Below are positions 2,766 to 36,358 of a stretch of DNA of 36,358 nt, piece after piece; the stretch's first letter is position 1; the number at the start of each line of letters is the position of its first letter. Source of the DNA: Nitrospirota bacterium (GTDB lineage: Bacteria; Nitrospirota; Nitrospiria; SBBL01; JAADHI01). The notes beneath the pieces are model-generated. The model was not told where the DNA came from. It did no database searches and worked only from the letters and a program-made list of their open reading frames with translations. The DNA lies in assembly GCA_029261215.1 (NCBI GenBank), contig JAJDBT010000020.1:1-36358 (forward strand), given 5' to 3'. A program made the position numbers and the translations under genes.

Positions 2766-3458
2766 TTGAAGCCCTTAATTCAGATGAAAGCCCTCACAAA
2801 AACCTACAAAAGTGGTCGGATCGACGTGCAGGCGCTGGCTGAGATTAATCTTCAGATTCAAAAAAATGAATATGTCGCCATCATGGGACCTTCAGGCTCC
2901 GGAAAGTCCACCCTGATGAATATACTTGGCTGTCTTGATACGCCCAGTACCGGCCAGTATTTTCTGGGTGAAAAAAATATACAAAGCCTCAGCGACAATC
3001 AGTTGTCCGAGATCCGGAATCAGGAAATCGGTTTTGTCTTTCAGTCCTTTAACCTGCTGCCCCGGGTTTCGGCTTTAAAAAATGTTGAACTGCCTCTGAC
3101 CTATCTGGGTTTGCCACCCGCCGAACGGCGCAAAAGGGCCGCAGAAGCCCTGGATCGAGTGGGATTGGGGGACAGAAAACAACACAAACCGAATGAGCTT
3201 TCAGGCGGGCAACGACAACGGATTGCCATTGCACGGGCGCTCGTGACCCAGCCCGCCCTCATTCTTGCCGATGAACCCACAGGCAACCTCGACAGTAAAA
3301 CGGGAGAAGACATCATGGCCCTGATTCAAAAACTACACGATCAGGGCAACACGGTGATTATCGTCACACATGAGCAATATATCGCAGAACACGCGGCCCG
3401 CGTCATTCGGCTCCGGGACGGTCACGTTGAAAGTGATCTCCCCATTCATAAAACCTGA
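2766..3458 (+). CDS. MacB/LolD-type ABC transporter ATPase
   Basis: The ATP-binding subunit for the preceding permease. Walker A (GPSGSGKST), Q-loop region ([11 protein letters not shown]), signature ([15 protein letters not shown]), Walker B (LILADEPTG) and H-loop (IIVTHE) are all present and intact, so it should be an active ATPase. The start is uncertain. TTG 2766 gives [14 protein letters not shown], which keeps the first beta strand usual in this family. ATG 2784 would remove six residues of it. Neither has a clear ribosome binding site. The reading frame is also open further upstream across the permease stop. The gene ends 29 bases from the convergent amylosucrase gene. Confidence 0.88.
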
Positions 3459-5481: not shown

Positions 5482-6369
5482 TCATGAATCAAGCTGCCAG
5501 TCCGCGATGAAGGGTCGGTAAAATCCAATATCCTCAACCGTCGCACCCTGCTGACCCACCAACAGGGAAGCAAAGGATTGTGCCCGTTCCATCGTGAGCG
5601 CCAGGGGCCACCCCTTCGCCAAACCCAGTACGAGCACAGAAGAAAACGCATCTCCGGCGCCAACGGTATCCACCACCTGAACTTTCTCCGATGGCGCAAT
5701 GCACATCGGCGGCTGATTCGGAGTGACCGCTAAAGCGCCGCTTTCGGCACGGGTAATGACCAGGCATTCGAGTTGGTGTCTGGCTCTAAAATCTTGAGCC
5801 ATTTCTTCCAGTACCCCTTTTTCTCCGGACAACAGTCTCAGTTCGTGATCATTCATTTTGACCCAGTGCGCCTCTTTGACCAGAGCAAGAACGGCCTCTC
5901 GCTGCCACCAGGGATCGCGCAGATTCACATCTAAAAAGACTTTTTCAACCTGGGCTTTTCTTAAGTGGCGAAATGATTCAGCGGAGACCTGACTCCGAAG
6001 CCCCAGACTGCCGTGACAAAGGATTCGGCAGTCAAGGTTTTCAAAATGCGCGTCGGCAATAAAGTCATAGGCACAGTCGGGAACAATCTCATATCGAGGA
6101 TCAGATTTTTCAAAATGCACGTCCACCCGACCGGTCGGATGCTGCGGATCATCCTGCAAAGACCGTGTATCCATCCCCCAAGTCGACATGGCGGCATGAA
6201 CCGCGCGGCCGGGTTCATCATTCCCCACCCGGCTGATAAAACGGGGCGCTTGCCCAAACGCTTGCAGGTGCCACGCCAAATTAAAGGGCGCTCCCCCCAA
6301 AACACGATTTCCAGCGGGAAAAACATCAAACAGCACCTCACCAAACACGCAGACCCCCAATGCCTTCAT
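5482..6369 (-). CDS. fruK: PfkB-family fructokinase
   Basis: A ribokinase/PfkB-fold sugar kinase of 295 residues. The N-terminal signature (GEVLFDVFPAGNRVLGGAPFN) contains the sugar-binding glycines. The C-terminal signature VDTVGAGDAFSSVL has the anion hole and the catalytic aspartate. Between sucrose-phosphatase and amylosucrase its expected job is phosphorylating the fructose that amylosucrase releases, giving fructose-6-phosphate for glycolysis or for renewed sucrose synthesis. The ATG overlaps the preceding stop in an ATGA arrangement (6366-6369), so translation is probably coupled. Other PfkB substrates (2-keto-3-deoxygluconate, adenosine) are much less likely in this context. Confidence 0.88.
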   Translation of the reverse strand: MKALGVCVFGEVLFDVFPAGNRVLGGAPFNLAWHLQAFGQAPRFISRVGNDEPGRAVHAAMSTWGMDTRSLQDDPQHPTGRVDVHFEKSDPRYEIVPDCAYDFIADAHFENLDCRILCHGSLGLRSQVSAESFRHLRKAQVEKVFLDVNLRDPWWQREAVLALVKEAHWVKMNDHELRLLSGEKGVLEEMAQDFRARHQLECLVITRAESGALAVTPNQPPMCIAPSEKVQVVDTVGAGDAFSSVLVLGLAKGWPLALTMERAQSFASLLVGQQGATVEDIGFYRPFIADWQLDS

Positions 6370-7238
6370 CCTAAATTCCCCTTCTTTTCGAGCCCCAGCC
6401 AGGGTTTTGTTTGCGGCAGAAAATAAGCAATGCCTTCAAGTATACCCGCACTATAATTGCCATTCATGCCCATAAAACCGCCCTGTGCAAGATAAAGCGC
6501 TTCAGCGTTGCCTTTTTGAGCTGAAAGCGCGAGCGCTTTATCCCGAATTTCGGCGGTACTGTTTGCAACGAGTACGGCTTGAATCGGGCTGCTCAGCACC
6601 TCCAGATCGTTCCCGCTGTCGCCGCTAAATACCGTGTTTTCGATAGAAAAATTCAGATGCCGCATCAAAAAGCGGATGGCATGAACCTTTGTCGCGCTCT
6701 CCGGCAAAACATCCAGCAAAGCCACTTTTGCAAGCACATCAATGCTGTGAACAAAACTGGCTTTGACCTCACGGGCTTCCAAACGCTCACGCATCAGTGA
6801 GATTAAATTCTGGGGATCAGCGTCCATCGGAAGGTAATAACTTAACTTGTATGTATTTTGTTTTTCGGGCTCCTGAAGCCTTAAAACGGAAAAATCATCA
6901 AAACAGTTTTTTAAATCGCGATGACTCAAACCGGCCCAGTCAGAGGCAATTTCATCTTCCCATTGGAGCCAGGATCTTTTGTTTCCAGACGCTTCTTGAG
7001 TCATCGTATAAATGGTGCTGCCAACATCGCCAAGCACATAATCCGGCTGTGGCAGGCTGTAGTCTTTCATCGCCTTTTCGACCAGCGCCCGATGTCGGCC
7101 GGTGACATAGGCCAGGGTGACCTCCGGCCTTGAGACATACTTTGAAAAATAATTCCGCGCATTGGGGGATTCCTTCTCCAGTCCGTTGGGGAGCAAGGTG
7201 CGGTCCAAATCCGTACAGATTAAAATGCGTGAATCCAT
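6366..7238 (-). CDS. spp: Sucrose-6-phosphate phosphatase (HAD family)
   Basis: Removes phosphate from sucrose-6-phosphate, making the synthesis pathway irreversible. The HAD catalytic motif is intact: CTDLDRTLLPNG with both aspartates, motif II threonine in YVTGRH, and motif IV GDSGNDLEVL. The Cof/SPP-type C2 cap lies between motifs II and III. ATG 7238 overlaps the stop of the synthase (TGATG), indicating coupled translation. A TTG one codon upstream is also in frame. Its intact active site contrasts with the degenerate HAD domain at the end of the synthase next door, so this is the phosphatase of the pathway. Confidence 0.88.
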   Translation of the reverse strand: MDSRILICTDLDRTLLPNGLEKESPNARNYFSKYVSRPEVTLAYVTGRHRALVEKAMKDYSLPQPDYVLGDVGSTIYTMTQEASGNKRSWLQWEDEIASDWAGLSHRDLKNCFDDFSVLRLQEPEKQNTYKLSYYLPMDADPQNLISLMRERLEAREVKASFVHSIDVLAKVALLDVLPESATKVHAIRFLMRHLNFSIENTVFSGDSGNDLEVLSSPIQAVLVANSTAEIRDKALALSAQKGNAEALYLAQGGFMGMNGNYSAGILEGIAYFLPQTKPWLGLEKKGNLG

Positions 7239-9385
7239 CAATTTTCCGGGACGCGACAGGTATTAAAAAAATCGTAATATTCGATGGCCTCTAAAATGCC
7301 CAGGGTGTGGGGCTGCCGGGAGAAATAGATCCGCTCCAGATCAACCAGTTGCGATAATTCTTCATGATGCCGATTGGCCACAACCACAGCCAGGGTGTTG
7401 CCCAGCATCATGTCCTCGTCCCCACCCGATCCACCCACAACCAAAATTTTTTCCAGAGGAATTTCCCAGCGTTGGGCAAAATAACGCAGCGCCTGTCCCT
7501 TAGAAGCGCGTACTGGAATAATGTCAAGATATTGCCCAAAGGAATGAATAACATTGGCCGTTTGTTCTTTTGTCCGCAACAGGGTCTTGATTTCTTCAAC
7601 GGAGGGGGCCTTTTCCGGATCATAATAATATGAAATTTTGAAACGACTCTGCTCTTTTTTCGCTTGCAGTTTCAAGCCGGGTAAATCACCCAAAATACGC
7701 TGAATCGTCTTGGGTTTCCAAAGGTGATCAATATGTTCTGACCAAAACCCATCCGCGTTGAGTCCAGGAGAATAATGGATCTGCGTACCCAGGCTGGTCA
7801 CGAGAACATTGGGGATCGGAATATTGTGCTTTTTTAAAACAGCCAAAGCGGAGTCCAGTCGGCGGCCGGTGGCGATGCCAAAACTGGTTGACCTGCGATG
7901 GGACTGCAATACCTTGATAAGATGAGGCAAGCCCTCGGGACTATCCAGCAAATTCAAATCAAGTCCCGTAAAAATGGCCCGGTCATGATAACGCATGGGC
8001 CGACGTTCGAGCGGAGGTTCAGGCAGCGTTTCCTGCGTTTCCAATAACGCCCCAACCTTGGAAAGATAGGACTGCGCATGCATCTTCCAGGAATAGTGTT
8101 TTCTGACGCCATGAATCCCGTTTTGGGCATACTCCTGCCAGCACAGGGGATCTTTCAATATTTTTAATAGGGCCGAGACAAGCGCATCCGTATCCAGCGG
8201 GTCAATCAAAAGCCCGTTTCGGCAATTATCGAGAATATCCACTGGCCCGCCGTTTTCTGTTGCCACGACCGGCAATCCACTTGCGGCGGCCTCCAGTAAA
8301 GTCAGCCCAAATGGTTCCGTCAGTGCGGGATTAACAAACACCCCCTTTGACAAGGCCGCCAGACGGTAAATCTCCGGCACCTCATCGGGAAGATGATGTT
8401 TCGGGATGGCGACACGACCGTACAGATTGTAATAGTCCACAAGCAGCAACAAGTCGGTCAAAACCATTTGTGCCCCATTCTCCATTTCACGAATATCCTC
8501 ACGATTACCCGCAACAATCACCAGGTTTGACACCTCCTGTAATTCAGCGGACTGGCCATAAGCCTCCAAAAGCGAGAGCAGGTTTTTTCGTTCATCCGGC
8601 CGGGATAAAGCCAGAATCATCGGCTTTTCGGGAGACTTGAGAAAAGGAGAAATCGATTTTACAAATGCGGTGGGTTGAGCAGCGGACTCAGGGGGATGAA
8701 ATTGAACCAGGTCGGTGCCGGGTGGAATCACCGCCATGCAGGCAGGTTGATAATAATCATAGAGGGCATACTGCGCCTCAATCTCGTTGGATGTACTCGT
8801 GATCACGAGGTTCGCATTGGCGAGCACCTCTTCTTCGGCATCAACACGCCGACTCATATGATATCGTTCTTCGACCTCCGCCCGACTCAAACCTGAAGAC
8901 AGGAGCTTTCGACGTTTGTCCCGGCCCAGAGAATGCCCCGTATGCACCAAAGGAATGCCCAAAAGATTTGAGAGCCTGACTCCGACATAACCGGCATCGG
9001 CATAATGGCTGTGAATGATATCGGGCAAACGCGGCTGTTCATTCAGCCAGTTCAGCAGATTATCTGAAAAAACATCAAGATGATCCCAGAGTATTTCCTT
9101 GGACAAATACTCATCCGGTCCCGCATCAATCCTAATAATGCGTGTCTTTTTGGAAAGGGCTTCGCATTTTTTTGAATAGTCCGGACCCACGCCGGAATCC
9201 ACAATGCGCCGGGTGACCAAATCGATCTGTGCGACTTCCGAATGCTCAGAAAGCGCATGGCACAGATCAACAACATATTTTGTCTGTCCACCCGTATCGG
9301 CATCGCGGCCCAATTCCAGATGATGCCCTCGAATCAAACCATGAATGCTGATCATGAGAAAATACAGTGGTTTATTTTGTACCAT
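7238..9385 (-). CDS. sps: Sucrose-phosphate synthase with inactive HAD tail
   Basis: Makes sucrose-6-phosphate from UDP-glucose and fructose-6-phosphate. Residues about 1-460 are a GT4 glycosyltransferase with the hallmark start ISIHGLIRGHHLELGRDADT and GGQTKYVVDL. The donor-site E-x7-E is in TEPFGLTLLEAAASGLPVV. Residues about 470-715 are an SPP-like HAD domain whose active site looks lost: the DxDxT position reads GLDLN and motif IV reads GGSGGDEDM. Plant and cyanobacterial synthases also carry such non-catalytic tails. It is the first gene of a four-gene operon. ATG 9385 is preferred over an adjacent TTG. A possible -10 (TATACT, complement of 9438-9443) lies upstream with no good -35. Confidence 0.9.
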   Translation of the reverse strand: MVQNKPLYFLMISIHGLIRGHHLELGRDADTGGQTKYVVDLCHALSEHSEVAQIDLVTRRIVDSGVGPDYSKKCEALSKKTRIIRIDAGPDEYLSKEILWDHLDVFSDNLLNWLNEQPRLPDIIHSHYADAGYVGVRLSNLLGIPLVHTGHSLGRDKRRKLLSSGLSRAEVEERYHMSRRVDAEEEVLANANLVITSTSNEIEAQYALYDYYQPACMAVIPPGTDLVQFHPPESAAQPTAFVKSISPFLKSPEKPMILALSRPDERKNLLSLLEAYGQSAELQEVSNLVIVAGNREDIREMENGAQMVLTDLLLLVDYYNLYGRVAIPKHHLPDEVPEIYRLAALSKGVFVNPALTEPFGLTLLEAAASGLPVVATENGGPVDILDNCRNGLLIDPLDTDALVSALLKILKDPLCWQEYAQNGIHGVRKHYSWKMHAQSYLSKVGALLETQETLPEPPLERRPMRYHDRAIFTGLDLNLLDSPEGLPHLIKVLQSHRRSTSFGIATGRRLDSALAVLKKHNIPIPNVLVTSLGTQIHYSPGLNADGFWSEHIDHLWKPKTIQRILGDLPGLKLQAKKEQSRFKISYYYDPEKAPSVEEIKTLLRTKEQTANVIHSFGQYLDIIPVRASKGQALRYFAQRWEIPLEKILVVGGSGGDEDMMLGNTLAVVVANRHHEELSQLVDLERIYFSRQPHTLGILEAIEYYDFFNTCRVPEN

Positions 9386-15383: not shown

Positions 15384-17729
15384 GTGACGCCGACGCTGTC
15401 CTCTGAAAAAGGATTTTCTATCATCGCCGTCGTGGTCATGATGCTCATGATCGCAGTAATGGGACAAACACTGATTTCAATGGTGGGTACGGAGAATTTT
15501 TCAACGGTGAATCAAATGAGAACAACACAGGCACACTACATCGCAGAATCGGGTGTTGAACGCGCCGTATACGAGTTTGGTAATGGCACAGCCTGCAATC
15601 TGCTCACTTATAACGACACAGTGGGTGCAGGCGCCTATACAACAATCGGCACGCTTTACAATGCATCCAGCGCCATCCTTTCTTCTGCGATTGTGATTGG
15701 AGATACCATCATTCCGCTTGACAGCCTCACGGGTTATGCCCCGCACGGGCAGGTCACGATTGAAGCGGAAGACATCACCTATGGGGCAAGTTCGGCCACA
15801 GCCGCAGACTGCGCGCCCTTTGGCACGCCCTGTTTGATCGGAGTTCAACGCGGGGTCAACGGCACCACTGCCGCGGCCCACGCCTTAAGCACTCCGGTCA
15901 GTCAGGATCAATGTCTGATTTCATCGACGGGAACAGTCGCAGGCTCGCCGAGCATCGCTCAACGTGTCATCGAGTCGAGCGTGAGCCAAAGCGGCGGCGG
16001 AGCCGGCAGCACAGTGCAAACCGGCACCGCCGTCAGTACGGCCAACGGCACCCTGACAGTTCCCATCCCGACAACAGTGGATATGACGCGATCTTTTTTA
16101 ATGTTCAGTTCAAGGCATAACAGCAATCGGCCCGTGGGTTCGATGCTCCGTGGCCGGATCGCCACACCCACGACCCTCGAATTTGTTCGGGTCACCGATG
16201 AAGGCACACCGGTGCCCATCACCATCACCTGGTCTGTCGTAGAGTTCAGTACGGGTGTCGTCGTTCAGCGGGGTTCCGTCAATCAGAGCAGCACCGTCAT
16301 TAATGTGCCCATTACAGCGGTTGCTTCTCTGAACCAGGCCTTTGTGACCTGGTCAAAAACCCCCGCTATCGGGGCTAACGATTGGAGTCAGGATGATCCG
16401 ATATTAGGGGACTTGACGACGACCACAAACCTTCAGTTTCGGGTAGAAACCGCAAATGCAAACCATGTGATTTGGTGGCAAGTCATTGAGTTTACCAATC
16501 CAGCCGATATTTTTGTGCAAAGAGGCACAAGCTCTTTAACCGGTGGCGGTGGTGGTGGCTCTTCTGTGAACGTCACACTTCCGACACCCGTCGATACGAC
16601 AAAGACCTTCGTCCTCGTGGGTTTTCGCACCAACGGGACAGGCTCGAATGTCGGACGGAGAATGCTTCGCGCCCGCCTCATGAATACCACGACCATCAAC
16701 ATTGACCGCAGTATTGCAACCGGATCAGAGCGAATTACAGAAATCGCCTGGCAAGCGGTACAGCTCAACAATTCAGTGGTACAGCACGGTTCCGAAAACT
16801 TTCCGGTCGTGGCCGCGCCCCAAATCGTCGTGACCATGGCTGACAGAGTGCGAGAAGTGAATGCAGGCGCTATTTCCCTTCTCGATACCCAGGCCGGCCT
16901 CACCTCAACCACGACAAACACCACTTCAGGCGCAACAATTTCCACAAACATCTCAACCTCTGCGGCCAATTCCTGGGTGATTGATGTGGTCGGCAGTAAT
17001 GATGATGGAACCTTTAGCCCAGGCGCAAGCCAGGTCGAGCGTTGGGATATTGAAAATGGTCGGGCAACAGGCGCTTCCAGCACACAAGTCGTTCCGTCCA
17101 CCAGTACCCCCTCAATGACGCAAAGTCACGGGAGCGCATCATTTCTCGTCCATGCCTTAGCCGCCATTGCCCCTGATCCCGGCGCGGGAGCAATCACCTA
17201 CGATACCCAAAGCAGTGCCACCGACAGAAATGTCGACACCATAACCTGGCCGCATACCATCGGTGCAGGCAATAACCGGAAGTTGATCGTCGGCGTGGCA
17301 ACGGAAGAAAATAACACCAGCCTTTCCGAAGACGTCATTAGCGTCACATACAACGGCGTCCCGCTCACATTCGCGACCCAGGTAAGACGGTTCGAAAGTG
17401 GCGAGGCAGAGCAGGTGGAAATCTGGTATATGGACGAGGCGGACTTGCCGCCAAGCATTGGCACTCGGATTGTGCCTATTACCACTGTGGATACCACACG
17501 CACCATCGCTTTTGGATCGGTTCAACCTGTAGGCGGACAAAATATGGGCCGTTCTCCCTACAATGGAGATGACGTGATTGGCGTGGGTTCGGTCACAATG
17601 GACCTGGCCCCCAATCAAATCACCATGCAACGAGACAACACCGCAGATGAGGCCGATATCGGCTGGTTTGTGGTCGAATTCGGCAGTTCGGGCGGCGGGG
17701 GCATGATCGATTGGCGCGAAGTTTTTTAG
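15384..17729 (+). CDS. Large prepilin-like adhesin (MshP/PilX start fused to repeat body)
   Basis: A 781-residue protein starting at GTG. The leader SSEKG precedes FSIIAVVVMMLMIAVMG. Position 5 is alanine instead of glutamate, as in tip-type GspK/PilX-like subunits, and the next segment TTQAHYIAESGVERAVYEF is typical of PilX/MshP. Residues about 108-172 form a small domain ending GVQRGVNGTTAAAHA. Four related repeats follow at about 231-288, 313-368, 401-460 and 701-765, each ending W-x-V-hydrophobic-E/Q-F/L (for example ITWSVVEF and DIGWFVVEF). Between repeats 3 and 4 lie beta-rich surface-protein-like segments (SWVIDVVGS, RKLIVGVATE, VTYNGVPLTF). In Vibrio, mshP and mshQ are separate genes, so this looks like a fusion serving as a tip adhesin; that function is inferred. 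Confidence 0.75.
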   Translation: MTPTLSSEKGFSIIAVVVMMLMIAVMGQTLISMVGTENFSTVNQMRTTQAHYIAESGVERAVYEFGNGTACNLLTYNDTVGAGAYTTIGTLYNASSAILSSAIVIGDTIIPLDSLTGYAPHGQVTIEAEDITYGASSATAADCAPFGTPCLIGVQRGVNGTTAAAHALSTPVSQDQCLISSTGTVAGSPSIAQRVIESSVSQSGGGAGSTVQTGTAVSTANGTLTVPIPTTVDMTRSFLMFSSRHNSNRPVGSMLRGRIATPTTLEFVRVTDEGTPVPITITWSVVEFSTGVVVQRGSVNQSSTVINVPITAVASLNQAFVTWSKTPAIGANDWSQDDPILGDLTTTTNLQFRVETANANHVIWWQVIEFTNPADIFVQRGTSSLTGGGGGGSSVNVTLPTPVDTTKTFVLVGFRTNGTGSNVGRRMLRARLMNTTTINIDRSIATGSERITEIAWQAVQLNNSVVQHGSENFPVVAAPQIVVTMADRVREVNAGAISLLDTQAGLTSTTTNTTSGATISTNISTSAANSWVIDVVGSNDDGTFSPGASQVERWDIENGRATGASSTQVVPSTSTPSMTQSHGSASFLVHALAAIAPDPGAGAITYDTQSSATDRNVDTITWPHTIGAGNNRKLIVGVATEENNTSLSEDVISVTYNGVPLTFATQVRRFESGEAEQVEIWYMDEADLPPSIGTRIVPITTVDTTRTIAFGSVQPVGGQNMGRSPYNGDDVIGVGSVTMDLAPNQITMQRDNTADEADIGWFVVEFGSSGGGGMIDWREVF

Positions 17730-25314: not shown

Positions 25315-25698
25315 ATGAGCAAAATACTGATCGTGGGATTAGGCGGATTTTTAGGGGCCATCCTCCGTTACCTGCTCGGCGGTTGGGTCCAAAACGTCTC
25401 TGGAAGCAACACCTTCCCCTACGGCACCCTAGCCGTCAATATCATTGGTTGTTTGGCAATCGGCCTTCTGACCCAACTCATGGAAACAAAACAGGTTTTT
25501 ACCCCCGAAACCCGAATTTTTTTATTTATCGGCGTCCTCGGCGCGTTTACGACCTTTTCCACCTTTGGCAATGAAACATATCATTTGCTTCGAGACGGGC
25601 AAACCCTGCTTTCCCTGGCCAATATTGGCGCACACCTCTTCATCGGACTCAGCGCCGTGTGGCTCGGACATCGTTTTGGCATCCTCATTTGGAGATAA
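25315..25698 (+). CDS. crcB: Fluoride channel CrcB/Fluc
   Basis: A 127-residue, four-helix fluoride export channel, the usual length for a homodimer-forming Fluc. Family motifs are present: GGFLGAILRYLLGGW at the N-terminus, FPYGTLAVNIIGCLAIGLL with the pore asparagine, and GVLGAFTTFSTFGNET with the phenylalanine-box and central sodium-site region. Only 18 bases separate it from the methyltransferase gene, with an AAAAAGGA ribosome binding site, so there is no room for a crcB fluoride riboswitch here. Confidence 0.93.
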   Translation: MSKILIVGLGGFLGAILRYLLGGWVQNVSGSNTFPYGTLAVNIIGCLAIGLLTQLMETKQVFTPETRIFLFIGVLGAFTTFSTFGNETYHLLRDGQTLLSLANIGAHLFIGLSAVWLGHRFGILIWR

Positions 25699-25702
25699 TC
25701 TG

Positions 25703-26050
25703 ATGACACTCCCTGAAGAAGGCGGACTGCTCCGGATTTTTATTGGCGAGAGCGATCAATACGAAGGCCGCCCGCTCTACGAATGGATTGTGCTGAAAGC
25801 CCGCGAAGACGGTTTGGCAGGGGCGACCGCGTTTCGAGGCATGTTGGGATTTGGAAGAAACAGCCGTATTCACACCACCAAAATACTCCGCCTTTCGGAT
25901 GATCTCCCCGTGATTATCGAAATCGTTGATACCCCGGCAAAACTCGAAGCCTTTCTCTCATCCATCGACCCGGCCATCTGCGAAGGCTTGGCCACGCTTG
26001 AAAAAGCTCAAATTCGATTTTATCGTGGTCGGGACGCCGCAAAAGATTAA
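25703..26050 (+). CDS. DUF190 protein (PII-like fold)
   Basis: A 115-residue DUF190 protein. Recognisable stretches are LLRIFIGESDQYEGRPLYEWIV and DGLAGATAFRGMLGFG, then LSDDLPVIIEIVDTPAKLEAF. DUF190 genes very often accompany crcB, and the family has a ferredoxin-like fold akin to PII signalling proteins, but its job is not settled. It starts four bases after the crcB stop. ATG 25703 is chosen; the frame is open further upstream inside crcB without any family similarity. Confidence 0.88.
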   Translation: MTLPEEGGLLRIFIGESDQYEGRPLYEWIVLKAREDGLAGATAFRGMLGFGRNSRIHTTKILRLSDDLPVIIEIVDTPAKLEAFLSSIDPAICEGLATLEKAQIRFYRGRDAAKD

Positions 26051-26089
26051 GATCCGATTTTGCCTTTGAAGAAATAAGGTGTTGATCAT

Positions 26090-26282
26090 ATGGATCACTT
26101 TGAATTTAGATATTTCAGACACGGGCGACCTTGTATTGGCCCTTATGTCTGACTCGCTGGAAGGGCTCTTTCGTGCGGCCTTACGAAACGAGGTCAAAGC
26201 AGTCGCCTTTCATCAATTTGAAGTCAAAAAAGAAAACGGACTTTGGCAAGCCACCCTTATTTTTGATATTGAAAACCCATGA
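26090..26282 (+). pseudogene. Archease remnant (frameshift plus internal deletion)
   Basis: ATG 26090 gives MDHFEF, a normal archease start, but the frame then changes at about 26107 into DISDTGD followed by SDSLEGLFRAA, the N-terminal archease motif. Directly after this comes LRNEVKAVAFHQFEV and LWQATLIFDI, the C-terminal archease motif. About 70 residues between them are missing compared with the usual length of about 140. Archease activates the RNA ligase RtcB, whose own remnant overlaps the end of this one (ATGA). I conclude the gene is dead. Recognition is from memory of the family, not a search. Confidence 0.7.
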
Positions 26283-26394
26283 AAATCAATCAAATCGGCC
26301 CAATGCTTTGGGAAATCCCGTGCATACGGTGGAAGGCGCGGGCATTTCCAAAAGAGCCGCCGCCTTTCGCCCCATCGGCATTATCAAGGGTTAA
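26279..26394 (+). pseudogene. RtcB RNA ligase remnant (about 38 codons left)
   Basis: The first 14 codons from ATG 26279 read MKINQIGPMLWEIP, like the RtcB N-terminus. The next bases, in a different frame, read VHTVEGAGISKRAAAFRPIGIIKG and a stop (26392-26394), like the RtcB C-terminus, which normally ends PIGVVKG. More than 400 residues, including all metal- and GMP-binding residues, are gone. The junction lies near 26320. The ATGA overlap with the archease remnant preserves the original operon arrangement. Confidence 0.72.
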
Positions 26395-26433
26395 GGCCAC
26401 GTTAAAAGTCGGCAGCCCCGGACAGGATGTGCA

Positions 26434-27303
26434 TTGAAACCCGCGATACGCCTGTATATTATTGCTCCGGCTTTACTCTATCTTTTACTTTGGGGCGTGG
26501 CCGACCTGCGTTACGAACATCAGATCGATCGACTGCTCAGTCAATCCGACAGCCTGGTTCATCAACTCGAAGCCAAAGACCCGGCACATCTGCGCCTCAT
26601 GATGCCAACACATCAAGAAAAGCGGCGGCCAGCAAAACCCTCGCTTTTTCATCCCAAACACATGATCACCGCGCTGTTTTCTCCCGAAATGCTGGGCAGA
26701 AAAACGCTTGAACCGCTTCAATCAATTCTGATGACTTTTAAGAACGATCTTGCGGGACTGGATTTTTCGGATATGGATCTACGTCACCTAGATCTGCGTG
26801 AAAGCAATCTCCGGGGCGCCGTATTCACCCGCGCGACGCTCATCGGCACCAAGCTGAATCAGGCCGATCTCAGCGGCGCGGATTTTCGCGAGGCACGGCT
26901 CAAGGGAGCAGATTTAACGGAAGCGACGCTCATTGAGACGGATTTGAGCAGCACAGACTTTAGAAAGGCCACGTTCAAAGGCGCCCTGTTTCGCGGGGTC
27001 AATTTTTTTTATGCCGACTTTCAGGGCGCAGACTTCAGCGAAGCACAACTCATGGGCGAGACGCTGAGCGCGGCGGATTTCAGAAAAGTGAATTTTTCAA
27101 AGGCCGACCTCAGCAACGCGGTGCTCAGCGGGGCGCGGCTCGATGGCGCGCGCTTTACGGATGCCAAGCTCAAAGAAGCCGATCTGCGTTATACCGATTT
27201 GAGTCAGAGCCTGGGTTTAAAAACAAATCAATTCATTGATCCACACATCGACCACAATACAAAACTGCCCGATACTTTATTACTTCCCGATTCGACACAA
27301 TAA
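26434..27303 (+). CDS. Membrane-anchored pentapeptide-repeat protein
   Basis: A 289-residue protein. The N-terminus has one hydrophobic segment (LYIIAPALLYLLLWGVA), an extended linker, and then about 27 pentapeptide repeats (residues about 105-270) of the A(D/N)LXX kind, such as ADLSGADFREARLKGADL, predicting a right-handed quadrilateral beta-helix. The start is TTG 26434, supported by AGGA at 26423-26426 and because the frame is closed upstream by the stop of the rtcB remnant with no ATG or GTG between. It was probably once downstream of archease-rtcB. Pentapeptide proteins have varied roles, including gyrase protection and scaffolding; none can be assigned here. Confidence 0.85.
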   Translation: MKPAIRLYIIAPALLYLLLWGVADLRYEHQIDRLLSQSDSLVHQLEAKDPAHLRLMMPTHQEKRRPAKPSLFHPKHMITALFSPEMLGRKTLEPLQSILMTFKNDLAGLDFSDMDLRHLDLRESNLRGAVFTRATLIGTKLNQADLSGADFREARLKGADLTEATLIETDLSSTDFRKATFKGALFRGVNFFYADFQGADFSEAQLMGETLSAADFRKVNFSKADLSNAVLSGARLDGARFTDAKLKEADLRYTDLSQSLGLKTNQFIDPHIDHNTKLPDTLLLPDSTQ

Positions 27304-27383
27304 ATGTTGCATCTTCAAGCAAATAGCGTCACTGCTCATGCACTAAAACGCCCCTTTCTCCCGAAAAAGGTGTATGATGAGCT

Positions 27384-27848
27384 ATGAATCTTTTTGAGCA
27401 GCTCGTCCAACTGACCTCACAGTTTGAAGCCGACAACATCGAATACGCCCTCTGCGGCGGTCTGGCCATGGCGGTGTACACCTTTCCGCGCGCTACGGTC
27501 GATATCGATATTTTAATCGAAACCCAAACCCTGGAAAAAGCCAAAACAGGCGCAAAAGCGCTTGGTTTTTCGGGTGATCCGAAATTCGTTCAGTTTAAAG
27601 ATGGGGCGATTCAAATCTATCGTCTTGAAAAAGAAGACGCCGATTCCGGCGATGCGCTGATGCTGGACATCTTGCTCGTGACGCCGCAAATCAAGGCCGC
27701 CTGGGAAACCAAAAAATACGTCAAATGGGACGGTGGGCAATTGCCCGTCGTTTCTCCGGAAGGACTCATTCATCTCAAATTGTTTCGCAAGAGCGGGCAA
27801 GACGAGGATGACATCAAACATTTGAGGCACTTCATTGAAAAAAGCTAA
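27384..27848 (+). CDS. Nucleotidyltransferase-fold protein (MNT/AbiEii-like)
   Basis: A 154-residue minimal nucleotidyltransferase. The motif region ALCGGLAMAVYTFPRATVDIDILIE supplies the glycine pair and the D-x-D metal ligands. A further acidic strand (LMLDILLV) gives the third carboxylate. The final part (VVSPEGLIHLKLFRKSGQDEDDIKHL) is typical of this AbiEii/MNT-like group. It is followed two bases later by a 49-codon ORF, a layout often seen in toxin-antitoxin-like pairs. Whether this one is a toxin, an antitoxin or a stand-alone enzyme is not decidable by reading. Confidence 0.8.
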   Translation: MNLFEQLVQLTSQFEADNIEYALCGGLAMAVYTFPRATVDIDILIETQTLEKAKTGAKALGFSGDPKFVQFKDGAIQIYRLEKEDADSGDALMLDILLVTPQIKAAWETKKYVKWDGGQLPVVSPEGLIHLKLFRKSGQDEDDIKHLRHFIEKS

Positions 27849-27849
27849 A

Positions 27850-27999
27850 ATGTCCGCCAAAGCCATCACCAAACGCTTGCAGCAAACCAGCGAGTTACGA
27901 CAACTTTGCCTCACGCTGGCCGCCGGCAGACCGGCGGAAACCCCGCCCGAAGAAGTACCCCGCACTAAACCCCTGGATCCTGCCGCGACGAGTCATTGA
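27850..27999 (+). CDS. Small 49-aa partner of the nucleotidyltransferase
   Basis: The ATG begins one base after the preceding stop codon (TAAA-ATG), and the product starts MSAKAITKRLQQTSELRQLC, a basic, helical segment, then a proline-rich tail. Similar small arginine- and leucine-rich proteins are, to my recollection, common directly after such nucleotidyltransferases. It is too short for automated thresholds. The tight spacing and terminator 33 bases downstream (28032) support it as the end of a two-gene operon. Function unknown; a protein partner or antitoxin is possible. Confidence 0.58.
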   Translation: MSAKAITKRLQQTSELRQLCLTLAAGRPAETPPEEVPRTKPLDPAATSH

Positions 28000-28031
28000 G
28001 CCACCCACTTTTATTAAACCATCGGCTAAGC

Positions 28032-28050
28032 GGGCTTTTAGCCCTTTTTT
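28032..28050 (+). terminator. Rho-independent terminator
   Basis: GGGCT (28032-28036), a TTT loop, AGCCC (28040-28044) and a run of six T (28045-28050). It ends the nucleotidyltransferase operon. Confidence 0.7.
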
Positions 28051-28160
28051 AGCCCTCAGCGCCCTGCCTTGATCTTCTTTTTCTGAACCGCTACACTCCA
28101 CACATCGTTTGCATAAAACAACAAGCCTCATTTCCCAAAAACGCACCACGCCTTTTTTCA

Positions 28161-28245
28161 CCCCACTTTGAAAAAGGGGGGCCGGGGGGGATTTGAAGTC
28201 GTCCGAGATGAAATCCCCCTCAATCCCCCTTTGTTAAAGGGGGAG
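28161..28245. repeat. G/C-rich palindromic intergenic repeat (MITE-like)
   Basis: A left arm with CTTTGAAAAAGGGGGG and GGGGGGATTT is matched by a right arm AAATCCCCCT, CAATCCCCCT, TTGTTAAAGGGG, imperfectly inverted around about 20 bases. Such AAATCCCCC/CCCTTT palindromes are known dispersed repeats in many bacterial genomes. It lies between the terminator and the Roco gene and could form a long hairpin. No second copy is in the window. Confidence 0.65.
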
Positions 28246-28282
28246 GTTTAGAAGCTGAAACACAAACACGGAGTTTTTAAAC

Positions 28283-30841
28283 ATGCCAGCACTTGCGCAT
28301 AATTTTCAAATGGCGATTAAAGAAGCCAAAACAAACAAATCGACGGATTTGTCTTTGCGGGGGGATAAAAACAGTGAAGGGCGAAACGTGCTTTTTGCCA
28401 TTCCTGAAGCGGTTTTTGAGCTGAGTGAACTGGAGACACTCGATCTCAGCAACAACATGCTTCGCACGCTGCCGCCGGAGCTGGCGCGGCTTAAAAAACT
28501 CAAACACGTGAATGTTGCACTCAATCCCTTGGCCGAGATTCCCGACCGGCCCGGTCTCATGCTCGACTCGGACCAAATTCAACACTTCGTTGAAAAACAA
28601 AAAGCATTCGGCCGGAAAACGTTGTCGGTATTCGTTTTCGCCGAAGCGGGCTGAAACGGCTGGGCGAGTGGTTCTCCCCGGGAGGCCTTTTCCCTCATCT
28701 CGAATGGCTCGATCTCAGCCAATGTTTGTTACAAACCCTGCCGGAGGGCATCACACGGCTTCACAATCTCACAAACCTCGATTTGGGGGACAACAAATTC
28801 ACGACCCCACCCCAACAAGTGATTGAAGGCGGTATTCTTCAAATCGAAAATTACTTTGAGCAGGCCGCAAAGCAGGGCACGCTCCCGCTTTACGAAGCCC
28901 GCATCCTCATCGTCGGTGAAGCAGGCGCAGGGAAAACAACACTTAAGAAAAAACTGCTCGACTCCGATTACAAACTGCCGAAAAGGGAGAGGACTCCACG
29001 CTTGGCATTCAGGTCGAAAACAACTGGTCTTTTCCTTTTGCCAAAGACAAAGAAATAAACTTTACCGCTCATCTCTGGGATTTTGGCGGCCAAGAAATTC
29101 AATACATGACCCACCAGTTTTTCCTGCGGGATCGTTCGCTTTATGTGCTCGTGTCCGACGACCGGCGGCAGGACGCCGATTTTGACTATTGGTTTAAAGC
29201 CATCCACCTCTTTGGAAAAGGCAGTCCGGTATTGGTCGTGCTGAACGAGCGCAACTATAAATCCATCACAAATTTCGACATCCATTATTACCAAAAACTT
29301 TACCCGGAGCTTGAAATCCAATCATTCCCCGTCGATCTCGGGCAAGACAAAGACCGCATCCTCAAACTCACAGAACAGGTGCAAAACCTGACCTCCGGCC
29401 TGAAACACGTCGGCGATGAAATTCCAAAGCAGTGGGTACCAATTCGCCTGGCCCTTGCCGCAAGACAAAAAGAACACCACATCAGTTACAGGGATTTTCT
29501 CGCCATCTGCAAAGAACACAAGGTCGAGGAGGAACAGTCGGCCCTTTTTATCAGCGGATATCTGGATGCGCTGGGGCTCATCGTGCATTTTAAAGACGAT
29601 GCGGCCTTAAACGATTTTGTCATTGTCGATTCCAAGTGGGTGGTCGAAGCCGTATATGCCGTACTGGAAGACAAAACGCTGGAAGACAACAACGGCCGCT
29701 TTACACAAGAATGGATTTTTGATCTCTGGCAAAAAAAGGGTACAAATATGACGAATGCTGCAAGCTCATCAACCTCATCAAAAAAGACAGCTTCGAGATT
29801 TGTTACGCACTGAAAAACCAGGACGAATGCACATACATCGCCCCGCAATTGCTGCCCTCAACTGAACCGGCATATGCATGGCAGTCGAATGACAACCTCC
29901 ACTTCCGCTTTGCCTATCCTTTCATGCCCAAGGGCATCATGGCGCGATTGATCGTGCGGCTGAGCGAATACGTGGCGCAAGAAAATGACGCACCGCTTAT
30001 TTGGCGGCGCGGGGCCGTATTTGGGGAGCGAGAAACCCGCGCCGAAGTGACACACCGCGATGATCCAAAATCCGGCGTCGAGTCGATCAATATTCGCGTG
30101 CAGGGCGACGCGCGCTCCAAACGCGAATTACTCACGATCATCAGCCACGAACTCAGACAAATTCACAAACGCTCTTTTGAAAATATCGTGGTCAACGAAT
30201 GGGTCCCCTGCTGCGGTCCGGTTTGCTCAGAAAAGGCAGAACCCAAATTGTTCGACTTTAAAGAAATCGAGGAGACGGTTAAAAACGGGCGTTCAAGGCG
30301 GTATTGCACCATTTGTAATGCAGACATCTCCATTCGTAAAATGCTGGAGGGCCTAATCGATCCGAGGCAAGATCGCGATACGAATGACTTTGATCAACGA
30401 AATATGAACCCTATTTTCAATGTTTACAACTCAGTAAAAAACGTAAACGAAGTCAAAATCGACATCAGTATCGACATTAAAAATCAGGTCATCGCGGAAT
30501 TTTCAGGCCTGCTCGAAAACCTTAAAGAAGATCTTTTGGATGAGATTGAAGGTGAAAAAGAAAAAGCGCAGGTCGCTAAAGAAATTGGAAAAGTAGAACA
30601 AGCCATTGCTGAAATCGGCGCCGTCTCAACACCGGAAGAAGCCAAAACAAAAACCGGCGCGCTCTCGCGTATTAAAAAATTCGTCGAAAAACTGCAAGAC
30701 GGCACAACAACGACGGGCAAGGCGATTGGGGCACTGGAAGATGGCATCAGCTATGCGCAAGACCTCGCCGCGCTGTACAATAAAATTGCCCCCTGGGCGG
30801 CCATGCCTTCCGTTCCGGATGTGTTCTTGAAAAAGAAATAA
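28283..30841 (+). pseudogene. Roco GTPase (LRR-Roc-COR) with three -1 frameshifts
   Basis: Reading through three single-base losses gives about 853 continuous residues. Leucine-rich repeats come first (ELETLDLSNNMLRTLPPELA; then LEWLDLSQCLLQTLPEGITR, LTNLDLGDN). The Roc GTPase follows with P-loop GEAGAGKTTL and switch II WDFGGQE; the G4 position reads NERN rather than N/T-K-x-D. Then comes COR (VDSKWVVEAVYAVLEDK, FRFAYPFMPKGIMARLIVRL), a cysteine-containing segment (CTIC after CCGPVC, possible zinc site), and a helical tail ending VPDVFLKKK. Frame changes lie at 28594-28612, about 28981-28990 (A4G3) and in the A7 run at 29731-29737. Each is repaired by adding one base, so recent decay, sequencing error or slippage are all open. 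Confidence 0.82.
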
Positions 30842-30886
30842 GGGGGACAGGGCTTGGGGTGGATTAAGCGTGGGATCGGGAAAAAG

Positions 30887-31681
30887 TCAGTCTTCGAGGG
30901 GTTTGTCATTAAAGAGGGCGGCCAGTTCTTCATCCACTGTCTCTTTTAATTTTGTGGCGTTGACCTTGTTCAAATCCACTTCCGGCGTTGTTTTTCTTTT
31001 CTTTTCGTCGATTTGACGGGCGGCTTCCATCAAAAGGCTTTCCCAGCTTTCGCGGATATTTCGCACGCCGGGCTCGCCTATCAAGGCACGACACGATACG
31101 CGCTGGGCAGGCAGATAGGCCAGACGGGAAAAGGTCTCTTTTCCATTGGCTTCCATTTTTTGATCACTAAGTTTGGCGGACCAGACTTCACCTGAAAGCA
31201 CCCTGATTTCTCCCGCAATTTTTCCATTCCTTTCGACTTCTATCGAAATAGAATAGCGGCCCATACCGGAGAGCTGGATGTAATCCGGCACACTAAAAGG
31301 CGCAGGCGCTGCAAGGGGATGACCCACTTTGACATGACTGAGCACGATGTTTCTCAGTTCGTTGAGCCCGACAGGTTTTTCAAAGACGCTTACATTGGCG
31401 TGCATGGGAATCATGGTTTGAAAGGTTTTCATAAAGGCGGTGATGTAGATCACGGGAATGTTGACTTTACGTTTTTCCAGTTCGCCCAAAAGTTCAACCC
31501 CCGAACGACCGGGCAAGTTGATATCCGAAAGGATCAATTGGGGTGCCTCATCATCAATGTGCGCAAGGCCCTCTTCAAGCGTCCCCGCATCGACCACGTT
31601 GATTTCGGGAAGCTTGGAAAGCCCGCGCACCATTGTGGATCTTAACATCTCTTCGTCTTCAATAATGAGTATGCGAGACAT
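30887..31681 (-). CDS. Response regulator with DUF4388-like output domain
   Basis: A 264-residue regulator. The receiver domain (1-120) has acidic pair E8-D9, phosphoacceptor D53 in LILSDINLPG, T81 and K102 (FEKPV). The second half (DYIQLSGMGRYSISIEVERN, GEIRVLSGEVWSAKL, GKETFSRLAYL) matches the DUF4388 type found on many response regulators. It has no DNA-binding helix-turn-helix, so output is likely by protein contact. The tail is charged and helical. The second in-frame ATG (31681) is chosen because AGAGGA sits seven bases before it. An earlier ATG (31687) is too close to it. The kinase gene ends 12 bases upstream of that earlier ATG. Confidence 0.85.
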   Translation of the reverse strand: MSRILIIEDEEMLRSTMVRGLSKLPEINVVDAGTLEEGLAHIDDEAPQLILSDINLPGRSGVELLGELEKRKVNIPVIYITAFMKTFQTMIPMHANVSVFEKPVGLNELRNIVLSHVKVGHPLAAPAPFSVPDYIQLSGMGRYSISIEVERNGKIAGEIRVLSGEVWSAKLSDQKMEANGKETFSRLAYLPAQRVSCRALIGEPGVRNIRESWESLLMEAARQIDEKKRKTTPEVDLNKVNATKLKETVDEELAALFNDKPLED

Positions 31682-31699
31682 TCGCATTTCCTCTAGCCA

Positions 31700-32824
31700 C
31701 TAAGATTTAAGTATACCCGACACTTCATTTTTTGGAGAAGTGAGCGGCACAGAAACCGTAATCCGGGTGCCTTTGTTCATTTCAGACGCAATTTTCAATA
31801 CACCCCCCGCTGCGGCAACCGTGTTTTCGCACAGACTTAGGCCAATGCCGCTTCCGTTGGGTTTTGTGGTCATAAACAGTTCCGTCGCGTGGGCTTGAAC
31901 ATCTTTCGACATCCCACAACCGTTATCCGAAACGACCATTTCAAAAACAGAGTCCTCTTGCTCCAGGCTGGCAGTGACTTGAACGGTATCTCCTGAGCGG
32001 CACGCATCGATGGCATTTGAAAGTAAATTAAACAGGATGGCCCGGACCACTGCCGTGTCGAGCATTAATAAGGGCATCGGGTCGATTTCGCATAAAAGGT
32101 CAATCCCGCCTGATTTGGCCTTGGCTTTCAAAACAAATACGGCCTCGCGAATCGCTTCATCCACCGCTTTTGGCACAGTGCTGTGTAATTCCCGATGCGT
32201 AGCGCCAATGCCTTCAAAGACAAGTTTCATTCGACGAATTTCGCTTAAAATCGCCTGCAAGGCTTCCCGCGTTGTTTTTGCCGGAATCTCTTCGACCTCT
32301 TCAAGCAAGACCTCGACCGCTGTCGTGATTGCCGCGAGCGGGTTTTTAAGCTCATGAAGAATTGTGGGTAACACATCACCCACTGTGGCGATTTTAAGCA
32401 GACGATCACGGTCACGATGGAGCGCATTCCACTGGGTAATGTCCTGAAAGGCAATGGCATACTGCAAAGGGCCTAAATCATCTCCAGGCACATTGACAAG
32501 CGATGCATGAAAACCGATCATTTTTTCTTCACCGGTGTGCAGGATCACTTTATGTTCCAGTCTGGTTTGTTCCTGCGACTTGGCGCCAACAAGTTGCTTG
32601 ATTTCCTCAATGGAAAACAAGACGGTGTCAATCTGACGTCTTTCCAGTTCGGCCTTTGTGCATTGAAGCACTTCGGAGGCATACAGATTGGCAAAGGTGA
32701 TTTGACCGGCTTCTGTCGTGACAATCACACCGGTATTCATGGAATTTAAAATTTGAATGGCCGGCGCATCGGCATAAAAAAGATCGGCGGGATTTTTAAT
32801 AGGGATGGCCGCTTCAGGTTTCAT
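31700..32824 (-). CDS. Soluble PAS-domain sensor histidine kinase (NtrB-like)
   Basis: A 374-residue kinase without membrane segments, so it senses an internal signal. A PAS domain spans about 22-130 (MNTGVIVTTEAGQITFANLY). The H-box is ILHELKNPLAAI with phospho-acceptor H157, of the HELKNP type seen in NtrB-like kinases. The HATPase domain has the N-box NLLSNAIDAC, G1 DNGCGMSKD, F-box LFMTTK and G2 GSGIGLSLC, all intact. It forms an operon with the response regulator that follows, so the pair is probably cognate. The ligand of the PAS domain is unknown. Confidence 0.9.
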   Translation of the reverse strand: MKPEAAIPIKNPADLFYADAPAIQILNSMNTGVIVTTEAGQITFANLYASEVLQCTKAELERRQIDTVLFSIEEIKQLVGAKSQEQTRLEHKVILHTGEEKMIGFHASLVNVPGDDLGPLQYAIAFQDITQWNALHRDRDRLLKIATVGDVLPTILHELKNPLAAITTAVEVLLEEVEEIPAKTTREALQAILSEIRRMKLVFEGIGATHRELHSTVPKAVDEAIREAVFVLKAKAKSGGIDLLCEIDPMPLLMLDTAVVRAILFNLLSNAIDACRSGDTVQVTASLEQEDSVFEMVVSDNGCGMSKDVQAHATELFMTTKPNGSGIGLSLCENTVAAAGGVLKIASEMNKGTRITVSVPLTSPKNEVSGILKS

Positions 32825-32890
32825 TCAATTGAAGTCTTTATTACGTTCATATTCAAAGTCATTTTTATGGGGTATCGTCATGTGCTGAAA

Positions 32891-32918
32891 AGTCTATCAT
32901 CGACTAAAACCCTGTCAA
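32891..32918 (-). promoter_or_regulatory. Sigma-70 promoter of the two-component operon
   Basis: On the minus strand TTGACA (complement of 32913-32918) and TAGACT (complement of 32891-32896) are 16 bases apart. The predicted leader is about 60 bases. Together with the typA promoter it accounts for the 321-base divergent gap 32825-33145. Confidence 0.55.
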
Positions 32919-32989
32919 GTCAGTCATCTTGAACGCTTCACATCTTCCAAAGTAAGAGGGTGCTTATCGCCGTTTCTGCGCATAAGGAC

Positions 32990-33018
32990 TTGTTTCGAAC
33001 TACTTTGACTGCTATAAT
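32990..33018 (+). promoter_or_regulatory. Sigma-70 promoter of typA (extended -10)
   Basis: A perfect TATAAT (33013-33018) preceded by TG one base upstream (extended -10), with a weak -35 TTGTTT (32990-32995) at 17 bases. The start is expected near 33025, giving a leader of about 120 bases. Confidence 0.55.
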
Positions 33019-33064
33019 CACTGCAATTCATCCTGTTTTGGGTGTCAATTCCTTTGGCGTCCCC

Positions 33065-33086
33065 AATTCTGGTTGAATTTTTTTTT
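33065..33086 (+). other. Weak hairpin plus T-run in the typA leader
   Basis: AATTC (33065-33069) pairs with GAATT (33075-33079) and is followed by T through 33086. A 5-bp AT-rich stem is marginal for a terminator, but its place between promoter and start codon would suit attenuation. The gene also lacks a clear ribosome binding site, with GGAGG 25 bases upstream of the ATG. Confidence 0.2.
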
Positions 33087-33145
33087 GGAGAAAAGCAGAA
33101 AAACACATAAATATTGGAGGCGTGTACCCGTTACACTAATAAAAT

Positions 33146-34984
33146 ATGATGCCCACTGAAACAAACAAAAAAATAAGAGAAGATATCCGCAATATTGCCA
33201 TTATCGCCCATGTCGATCATGGCAAAACAACCCTGGTTGACAAAATGCTCCAGCAGGGCGGCGCATTTCACGAGCGGGAAGGTATTGTGGAGCGGGTCAT
33301 GGATTCCAATGATCTTGAGCGTGAACGCGGGATCACCATCCTCGCCAAAAACACATCAATTCATTATGGAAAATATAAAATCAATATTGTGGATACGCCG
33401 GGACACGCCGACTTTTCGGGAGAAGTGGAGCGAACGCTCAAAATGGTAGATGGCGTCCTCCTTCTGGTTGACGCATTTGAAGGACCGATGCCGCAAACAA
33501 AGTTTGTCCTCAAAAAAGCGCTTGAATTAAAGCTCAACCCCATTGTAGTTATCAACAAAATTGACCGACCAGACGAACGGGCTCTGGTCGTAGCCGACAT
33601 GGTCACAGATCTTTTTCTTGAATTGGATGAAGAGGGCGATCAGCTTGACTTTCCGATTATATATGCTTCTGCAAAAGCAGGGATTTCCAAGTTGGACCTT
33701 AAAGACCCCGATTCCGACCTGACACCCCTTTTTGATATGATCCTCTCAAAGGTCACGCCGCCTGCCGGAGACATCGACGCTCCCTTTCAAATGCTCGTTT
33801 CTTCGCTGGAATATGATAATTTCGTCGGACAAATTGCCTTGGGCCGCATTAATCACGGCAGAATTAAGACCGGCGCAAGCCTGGCCTTGATTCAAAGAGA
33901 TGGCAGCATCGTCAAAGGAAAAGTCACACGACTCATTGGTTACGAAGGCCTGAAAAAGGTAGATATTAAAGAAGCCAGCATAGGAGAAATTATCGGAATT
34001 GCAGGGATGGAGGACTCCAAAATCGGGGAAACCCTCGCAGACCCCGAAACACCGATCGCCCTGCCGACGATTGAAATTGGTGAGCCGACCATTTCAATCA
34101 ACTTCATGGTCAACACCTCCCCCTTTGCAGGTTTGGAAGGCGACTATGTCACCAGCCGACAGTTACGAGACCGCTTGTATAAAGAATTACGCTCCAATGT
34201 CGCGCTCAAAGTGGAAGAAACCGGTTCGACAGATATCTTTAAGGTTTCAGGTCGGGGTGAGCTGCACCTTTCCATTCTTATTGAAACCATGCGCCGTGAA
34301 GGTTATGAGTTTGCCATCTCTCGTCCGGAAGTCATTTACAAAGAAGTCGATGGAAAAAAACACGAACCAATTGAACACCTCACCCTTGATGTCGAAGACA
34401 GCTATATTGGGGCCGTGATGGAATCTTTGGGACGACGTAAGGGTGAAATCCAGAACATGGGCAATTCTCATGGCGGCAATACCCGCCTTGAATTTGAGAT
34501 CCCTTCACGGGGCCTTATCGGCTATCGTTCTGACTTTTTGACCATGACCCGTGGCACAGGCATCATGAATTACAACTTTTCGGCCTATCAGCCATTTAAG
34601 GGTGAAATGCAAGCGCGGACAAAAGGTGCATTGATTTCGTTGTGTGCGGGAGAAACCGTCACCTTTTCCCTATTTAATATTCAAGAAAGAGGAACCCTCT
34701 TTTTGGGCTCTGGCGAAAAAGTTTATGAAGGCATGGTCATCGGAGCGCATTCTCGCGCCAATGATCTAGTCGTCAACGCCTGCAAGAAAAAACAGCTGAG
34801 CAACATGCGCTCTTCGGGTGCAGACGAAGCTTTAACCTTAACCCCGCACAAAAAGATGGTTCTGGAAGAAGCGATTTCCTTTTTAGCCGAGGACGAGCTT
34901 TTGGAAGTGACCCCAAAATCGATTCGCTTTAGAAAACGATACCTCACCGAAAACGAGCGAAAACGAACCTCAAAGAAAAAGTAG
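33146..34984 (+). CDS. typA: Ribosome-associated GTPase TypA/BipA
   Basis: A 612-residue translational GTPase of the usual length that binds the ribosome and helps 50S assembly and stress adaptation. G1 [11 protein letters not shown]2 RGITI (in [10 protein letters not shown]), G3 DTPGH, G4 NKID and G5 SAKAG are all present. EF-G-like domains II, III and V follow ([31 protein letters not shown]), and the C-terminal TypA-specific domain includes [19 protein letters not shown] and LTENERKR. Two ATG codons stand in tandem (33146 and 33149) and either may be used. It is monocistronic. Confidence 0.97.
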
Positions 34985-35513
34985 GGTTGATGGAGGCGGG
35001 AAAATAGCAGATTGAACCGGGTTGTTCCGTTTTAAGCATATGGCATAAGTCCGGTTCTATTCACACAACAACCTTTTCTCAAAAACCCACCTATATTTTC
35101 ATATTCAATGAGAAACACATGGTAAAATCACATTTTCAGCGTGATTTTACCATGTGTTTCATCCAAATCCGGCAAGCTTTTAAGTCTAAAAGAGATCACT
35201 TCGACACTTAAGTCCATCTTACATTCAATGAAATTCTAACCTTTTGGAATTAACGAATAGTCGGAGAAATAGAAAAAAACAGAGATATGATCCAGGCAAG
35301 ATGAAGTATCAACAGCTGTACATGATAGGTCAGTTCTATGTATCCTTTTCAAGTCTCAGGGGGAAAACCCTGAGGGCAAGAAACAAGACCCCATTCTTGT
35401 ATGAATTATTTGTTTAGGACACTACACTAGAAAGCAAACTCATGAAAATTGAAGAAGATCGGCTTAAAATCTATGAAAGAATTTGAGTGATGGGCGGAGG
35501 ATAGACTGATTGA
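34985..35513. other. 529-base stretch without a convincing gene
   Basis: It holds the 20-bp hairpin described separately and a second, shorter one (CTCAGGG at 35355-35361 with CCCTGAG at 35368-35374). A 14-codon ORF from ATG 35442 is too short to trust. The sequence is AT-rich compared with the genes on its left and looks like acquired or eroded DNA between typA and the IS-flanked gene. I see no promoter or RNA gene I would defend. Confidence 0.5.
35112..35160. repeat. Perfect 20-bp hairpin
   Basis: Bases 35112-35131 (GAAACACATGGTAAAATCAC) are the exact reverse complement of 35141-35160, around the loop ATTTTCAGC. No T-run follows on either strand. It stands 128 bases after typA. Possibilities are a processed or factor-dependent terminator, a mobile palindromic repeat, or a protein-binding palindrome. 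Confidence 0.8.
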
Positions 35514-36272
35514 TTAGAAATTCTTTTTTTCCTGCCATGACCTATTCCACGCATATTTAATTTTGCCAACATGCTCAATGGTTGACCCAGAAATGTCGGG
35601 GGAACGAATCCTTCTGATCTTTTTTATTTCTACTGTCCCAATGAGCTCTTTACGTAACCCAGAACTTTGTAAAACCCGGCATCTATAATCTTTTTCGAAT
35701 ACTGAAATACATGCATATCCAAGCGGAAGATACCTTACAATTGAGTACCACGGTTTCTTATTTCTCGCCGCCTTTACCGAAATGGAAACCAAGTGACCGC
35801 CTTTCTTTTTAAGACAAGAAGTAGTTATTTCATCTTTGGATTCTAAAACGACACTTGCCTTTAGAACCACTCTCAGACCATTTCGATGGATATCGGCATT
35901 TCTTATCTGAATTTCTACTCCATTCTCTCGAACACCCTTAAGCCTTTGCATCGCAATCATCAGCTTCATTGACAAAATATAGGTATGTATCTTACTAAAA
36001 ATCTTAGGTAATTTTGGGAACGGGACAAAAAAGATCAGGTCGTCCTCCAAAATTCCAGCATACCCTTCATAGTTATCGACTTTATTTTTTCTTCGATCCA
36101 AAAGCATTTTTCCATCAAAAGCTGCAAACCCAGCCAATGCAAATGGGGAACGTAAAGATAAGAAATATCTATCGTAGCCAGAAGCATAGCTTTCAGCCAA
36201 AATAGCAGTCCAGATAGAAGTGAGGTGGTAGGGTTTTAGTGGACACATTCTTAAGATTGGATTATCAATCAT
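35514..36272 (-). CDS. Unrecognised gene, start altered by an IS end
   Basis: A 252-residue frame that I cannot assign. It is rich in lysine and isoleucine, has no clear signal peptide or transmembrane helix, and shows mixed alpha/beta content (ISVKAARNKKPWYSIVRYLP, LGYACISVFEKDYRC). The central hydrophobic part FFVPFPKLPKIF may be amphipathic. The start ATG (36272) and the first eleven or so codons lie inside the end of the IS3-like element, so the native N-terminus was probably elsewhere and has been cut or replaced. Its AT-rich composition differs from the rest of the window, suggesting transfer. It may be a fragment rather than an intact gene. Confidence 0.4.
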   Translation of the reverse strand: MIDNPILRMCPLKPYHLTSIWTAILAESYASGYDRYFLSLRSPFALAGFAAFDGKMLLDRRKNKVDNYEGYAGILEDDLIFFVPFPKLPKIFSKIHTYILSMKLMIAMQRLKGVRENGVEIQIRNADIHRNGLRVVLKASVVLESKDEITTSCLKKKGGHLVSISVKAARNKKPWYSIVRYLPLGYACISVFEKDYRCRVLQSSGLRKELIGTVEIKKIRRIRSPDISGSTIEHVGKIKYAWNRSWQEKKNF

Positions 36273-36358
36273 TCAGGAGGTGTTCAATGAGTAATAAGCA
36301 AAGACGGAATCACACAAAGGAGTTCAAAGAAGAAGCAGTAAAATTAATAAAGGATCAG
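36233..36358 (+). mobile_element. Left end of an IS3-like insertion sequence (continues past window)
   Basis: TAGTGGACACATTCTTAAG (36238-36256) looks like an IS3-family terminal repeat and is followed, 30 bases on, by a strong ribosome binding site and the first codons of an OrfA-type transposase. The exact outer boundary and the target duplication cannot be fixed because the right end is outside the window. Confidence 0.6.
36287..36358 (+). CDS. IS3-family transposase OrfA, N-terminal part only
   Basis: The first 24 codons read MSNKQRRNHTKEFKEEAVKL and so on, the typical basic start (RR-x-HTKEFKEEAVKLI) of IS3/IS911 OrfA helix-turn-helix proteins. AGGAGG at 36275-36280 lies six bases before ATG 36287. 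The rest of the gene and OrfB lie beyond the window. Confidence 0.82.
   Translation, partial: MSNKQRRNHTKEFKEEAVKLIKDQ

Follow-up and report, generated by a model that had tools for sequence, protein, structure and literature searches.

Background

All prokaryotic Rocos fall in the LRR-Roc-COR group, and what they do in the cell is poorly understood (review PMC6337361). The gene described here, at 28283-30841 (+), resembles these proteins (group 1 Roco) in having LRR, Roc with P-loop and DFGGQE motif, COR-A and COR-B in the same order; unlike them, its frame is broken at three places and a complete protein is not encoded. It lies in a DNA stretch of 36,358 nucleotides (hereafter the window), which represents the entire contig C37 of a 3.37 Mb, 125-contig, 97% complete Nitrospirota genome; no second COR-A gene was found elsewhere in this genome. 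The third of the four pieces into which the gene is divided matches the solved Roc-COR chains 4wnr (1e-37) and 3dpu (3e-23), and also LRRK2, the human Parkinson's protein. The intact protein would, judged from its family, be a GTPase acting via its Roc-COR part, with the LRR as the sensing or binding part.

In its present state the gene is like bacterial pseudogenes that arose by recent frameshifts (a dispensable gene with several small indels and earlier purifying selection, set among intact neighbours); the only distinctive point is that this gene has been lost repeatedly across a family. Published accounts of broken bacterial Roco genes were sought, and nothing relevant was found. The locus is very likely a recently inactivated LRR-Roc-COR GTPase gene, that is, a pseudogene.

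Gene organization and reading frames

Positions 28283-30841 (+) correspond to a single LRR-Roc-COR protein of approximately 852 residues, interrupted by three -1 frame changes, so that the frame order along the gene is 0, 2, 1, 0. The pieces, the breaks and an adjacent repeat are:

28162-28243, no strand assigned: dispersed palindromic repeat that precedes the Roco gene closely but lies outside it; 40-nt arms, 75% complementary; many copies
28283-28606, + strand: piece 1, N-terminus and LRRs, frame 0; LRR_8 (5e-7); 70% identity to the OFTM244 Roco (see below), 72% to the remnant in genome G002
28607-28608, + strand: break 1, frame 0 to frame 2 (-1), no homopolymer; from alignment with the OFTM244 gene and the G002 remnant, both open there
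28609-28977, + strand: piece 2, LRRs and Roc P-loop (GEAGAGKTT), frame 2; LRR match, Roc 1-40 of 119
28978-28979, + strand: break 2, frame 2 to frame 1 (-1), within Roc, at CC, no homopolymer; from alignment with the OFTM244 gene, open there
28980-29737, + strand: piece 3, frame 1, remaining Roc with the switch II motif DFGGQE, then the larger part of COR-A; Roc (5e-16), COR-A 1-108 of 143, 4wnr and 3dpu
29731-29740, + strand: break 3, frame 1 to frame 0 (-1) at A7G3, within COR-A, with A AAA AAG in frame 1; from the OFTM244 alignment (open there), the COR-A split and codon positions
29738-30841, + strand: piece 4, frame 0, final part of COR-A, then COR-B and the C-terminal tail up to the original stop; COR-B (5e-30), 70% identity to the OFTM244 tail

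Piece 1 begins with an ATG at 28283, and its frame continues to a stop at 28654. Pfam matches follow the order LRR (pieces 1 and 2), Roc, COR-A and COR-B (pieces 2 to 4), with COR directly after Roc. Two of the profiles are divided between pieces: Roc 1-40 in piece 2 and 18-117 in piece 3, and COR-A 1-108 in piece 3 and 104-143 in piece 4. The four pieces are thus parts of one protein, and none of them contains the whole GTPase, the frame changing once within Roc and once within COR-A. Judged by its sequence, the gene is a broken member of the LRR-Roc-COR family.

An earlier note, made from the DNA letters alone, had described three frame changes of the same sign in this gene and had named a lack of LRR-Roc-COR similarity in the joined frames as one result that would speak against its reading; the reading frames and the Pfam order bear out both the shifts and the similarity. 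The note had also placed at least two of the breaks in or next to A/G homopolymers. This is correct for the third break only, at A7G3. The first is located not in the A5 runs but at approximately 28607-28608, between GCA and CGG, and the second is placed by the OFTM244 alignment at approximately 28978-28979 (CC) rather than in an A/G run. The homopolymer argument, and with it the case for phase variation or homopolymer sequencing error, which the note had offered as alternatives, is weakened accordingly, since it applies to one of the three sites.

Homologues and past selection

The nearest full homologue is the Roco of the Nitrospirota MAG OFTM244, which belongs to another genus (locus L006, on the same contig as G005:C55; 83% identity in Roc-COR). 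It is open at all three sites at which the window gene is broken, as are homologues from KSB1, Bacteroidota and Proteobacteria; the breaks are therefore absent from intact homologues. The OFTM244 gene differs from the window copy in its additional LRRs, in its genomic place and in a break of its own, inside COR-B. Near-identical tandem LRR units are found in it at 5640-5840 and are missing in the window copy, which suggests a recent expansion or contraction of the LRR.

In most of 32 related loci, Roc-COR is read in a single open frame. The broken ones, apart from the window gene, are the frameshifted OFTM244 gene, L019 and the truncated L011; in L019 (Thiotrichaceae) the defect is an in-frame stop at 3025-3027, between the LRR and Roc parts.

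In a codon comparison with the OFTM244 gene, pN/pS was 0.12-0.27 in each of the four pieces, and positions conserved among more distant homologues were kept in the window gene as well as in the OFTM244 gene; neither test against this homologue gave a sign of relaxed selection. These values show purifying selection that acted on all four pieces and lasted until recently. They also indicate that the breaks are recent, because every piece retains a low pN/pS and its conserved positions. The missing relaxation in the substitution patterns is as expected for very recent decay, but it is also expected for an assembly error.

The locus in related genomes

In genome G002, of the same genus, the neighbour order is as in the window (pentapeptide protein, Roco, response regulator plus kinase, BipA), and the Roco gene is reduced to a remnant (L072) that comprises the LRR start only, approximately 127 codons up to a stop, followed by a class 3 lipase gene. 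In G004, also of the same genus, the same flanks enclose no Roco, only 70 bp left over from the nucleotidyltransferase gene upstream. In G001 the pentapeptide gene is close to BipA. COR-A is absent from G001-G004, G006 and G007.

Between the window and OFTM244, the Roco genes share approximately 75% DNA identity and the BipA genes 74%. As the two divergences are about equal, the Roco gene is probably old in this Nitrospirota family; from these identities, descent from the family ancestor followed by repeated loss is the probable history. A foreign origin by composition was considered and rejected, the GC content of the gene being similar to that of its neighbours.

Frame breaks in the rest of the window and genome

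An ab initio coding-potential scan was run on approximately 231 kb of the genome (approximately 195 kb of stretches plus the window) and gave one further clear break. This break lies in a cas3-type CRISPR helicase gene (L094, G000:C15, approximately 7112-7328), in which DEAD and the start of cas3_core are in one frame and the Cas3 C-terminal part is in another. The scan was insensitive: about half of the bases were called coding, two of the three Roco breaks were missed, and much of the Roco gene was called non-coding. Given this poor power on the Roco gene, it was replaced by a comparison with relatives' open frames, taken from five genomes in the same genus or family and from the loci around the Roco gene. 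These frames covered 30,221 bases of the window outside the Roco gene, and no break was found there, versus three in the 2.56 kb of the Roco gene; the sole other frame change concerned a chance reading frame in an intergenic stretch (32990-33156). The probability that three random breaks would all land in the Roco gene is approximately 5e-4, a value that is indicative only, as the gene was chosen after the fact. The view of the earlier note that the other long genes of the window are intact is thereby upheld, and its simplest reading, decay confined to this gene, is supported by the comparative evidence.

Alternative explanations

The strongest competing explanation is that the organism has an intact gene, three bases of which were dropped in sequencing or assembly. 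The missing relaxation of selection and the A7 run at one break would suit such an error, as would the draft state of the assembly (125 contigs), which, with the cas3 break in approximately 231 kb, is not entirely free of such events. However, errors at this density should also appear in the remaining 30 kb of sequence in the window, where none are seen, two of the three break sites are not homopolymers, and one faulty assembly provides no explanation for relatives in which the gene is independently broken, truncated or missing. An assembly error is therefore considered improbable, but deserves more weight than any other alternative.

Programmed -1 frameshifting, or slippage-based phase variation, has been considered as a control of expression at least at the third site, where A AAA AAG stands in the incoming frame at 29732-29738 and slipping by -1 would yield a product that agrees with the homologues across the junction. 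This is very unlikely. A slippery heptamer is found at the third site only; the other two have neither a heptamer nor a long run and lie outside repeats, and the third site itself is an A7 rather than a long variable tract. At no break site is there a downstream fold better than shuffles, and downstream of the third site the RNA shows no unusual degree of structure (z 0.63 and -0.69). Moreover, the breaks are missing in homologues, the loss of a base in an A run by itself creates such a heptamer, and the + strand of the window holds 18 copies of AAAAAAG. There is likewise only a slim chance that the heptamer at the third site still permits some -1 frameshifting, such that a strain with that break alone could make functional Roco at a regulated low level.

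A split Roco, put together from pieces that are each translated on their own, would agree with past purifying selection on all of them, but is hardly credible, as the breaks cut within Roc and COR-A, piece 3 offers no ATG in its frame before 29106, which lies after the DFGGQE motif, the only start in piece 2 is a TTG at 28726, and other homologues are not split in this manner.

Features of the neighborhood

The repeat upstream of the Roco gene (arms at 28162-28201 and 28204-28243, within 28139-28254) is MITE- or REP-like, with many copies in the genome of the window and in relatives. Further upstream, 27384-27999 comprises a small nucleotidyltransferase gene (AbiEii/DUF6036-like) and, overlapping it, a short conserved reading frame with its start near 27835-27850; this pair is also found at other places in related genomes. 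Decay of the nucleotidyltransferase gene (27384-27848) was suspected from homologous DNA past its stop, and was rejected, since its end coincides with that of its homologues and is followed by a second small reading frame. A 781-residue reading frame with no Pfam match is present at 15384-17729; type II secretion/pilus ATPase and membrane genes and a run of small reading frames precede it. No Rfam match was obtained in 25600-36358. Defense-system models (PADLOC) gave no match for the Roco pieces of the window and two weak matches for the OFTM244 tail.

Interpretation

Recent decay is the best supported reading and accounts for all observations, with a small share of the probability left to assembly error. 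On this reading, three independent single-base losses divide the frame such that neither a complete Roc GTPase nor a complete COR dimerization unit is present in any translation product; the Roco protein would not be made, and the gene would have no current function. The first break would have ended selection, and the other two may then have accumulated. The case is one of ordinary gene decay and not of a new mechanism, and the fitting annotation for 28283-30841 is one pseudogene rather than several proteins.

The finding is of little importance beyond providing a clean example of repeated gene loss. The repeated loss within one family, by frameshifts in two genera and by truncation and absence at the locus of congeners, suggests that the function of the Roco gene is accessory, and that the gene may be dispensable in this family of Nitrospirota.
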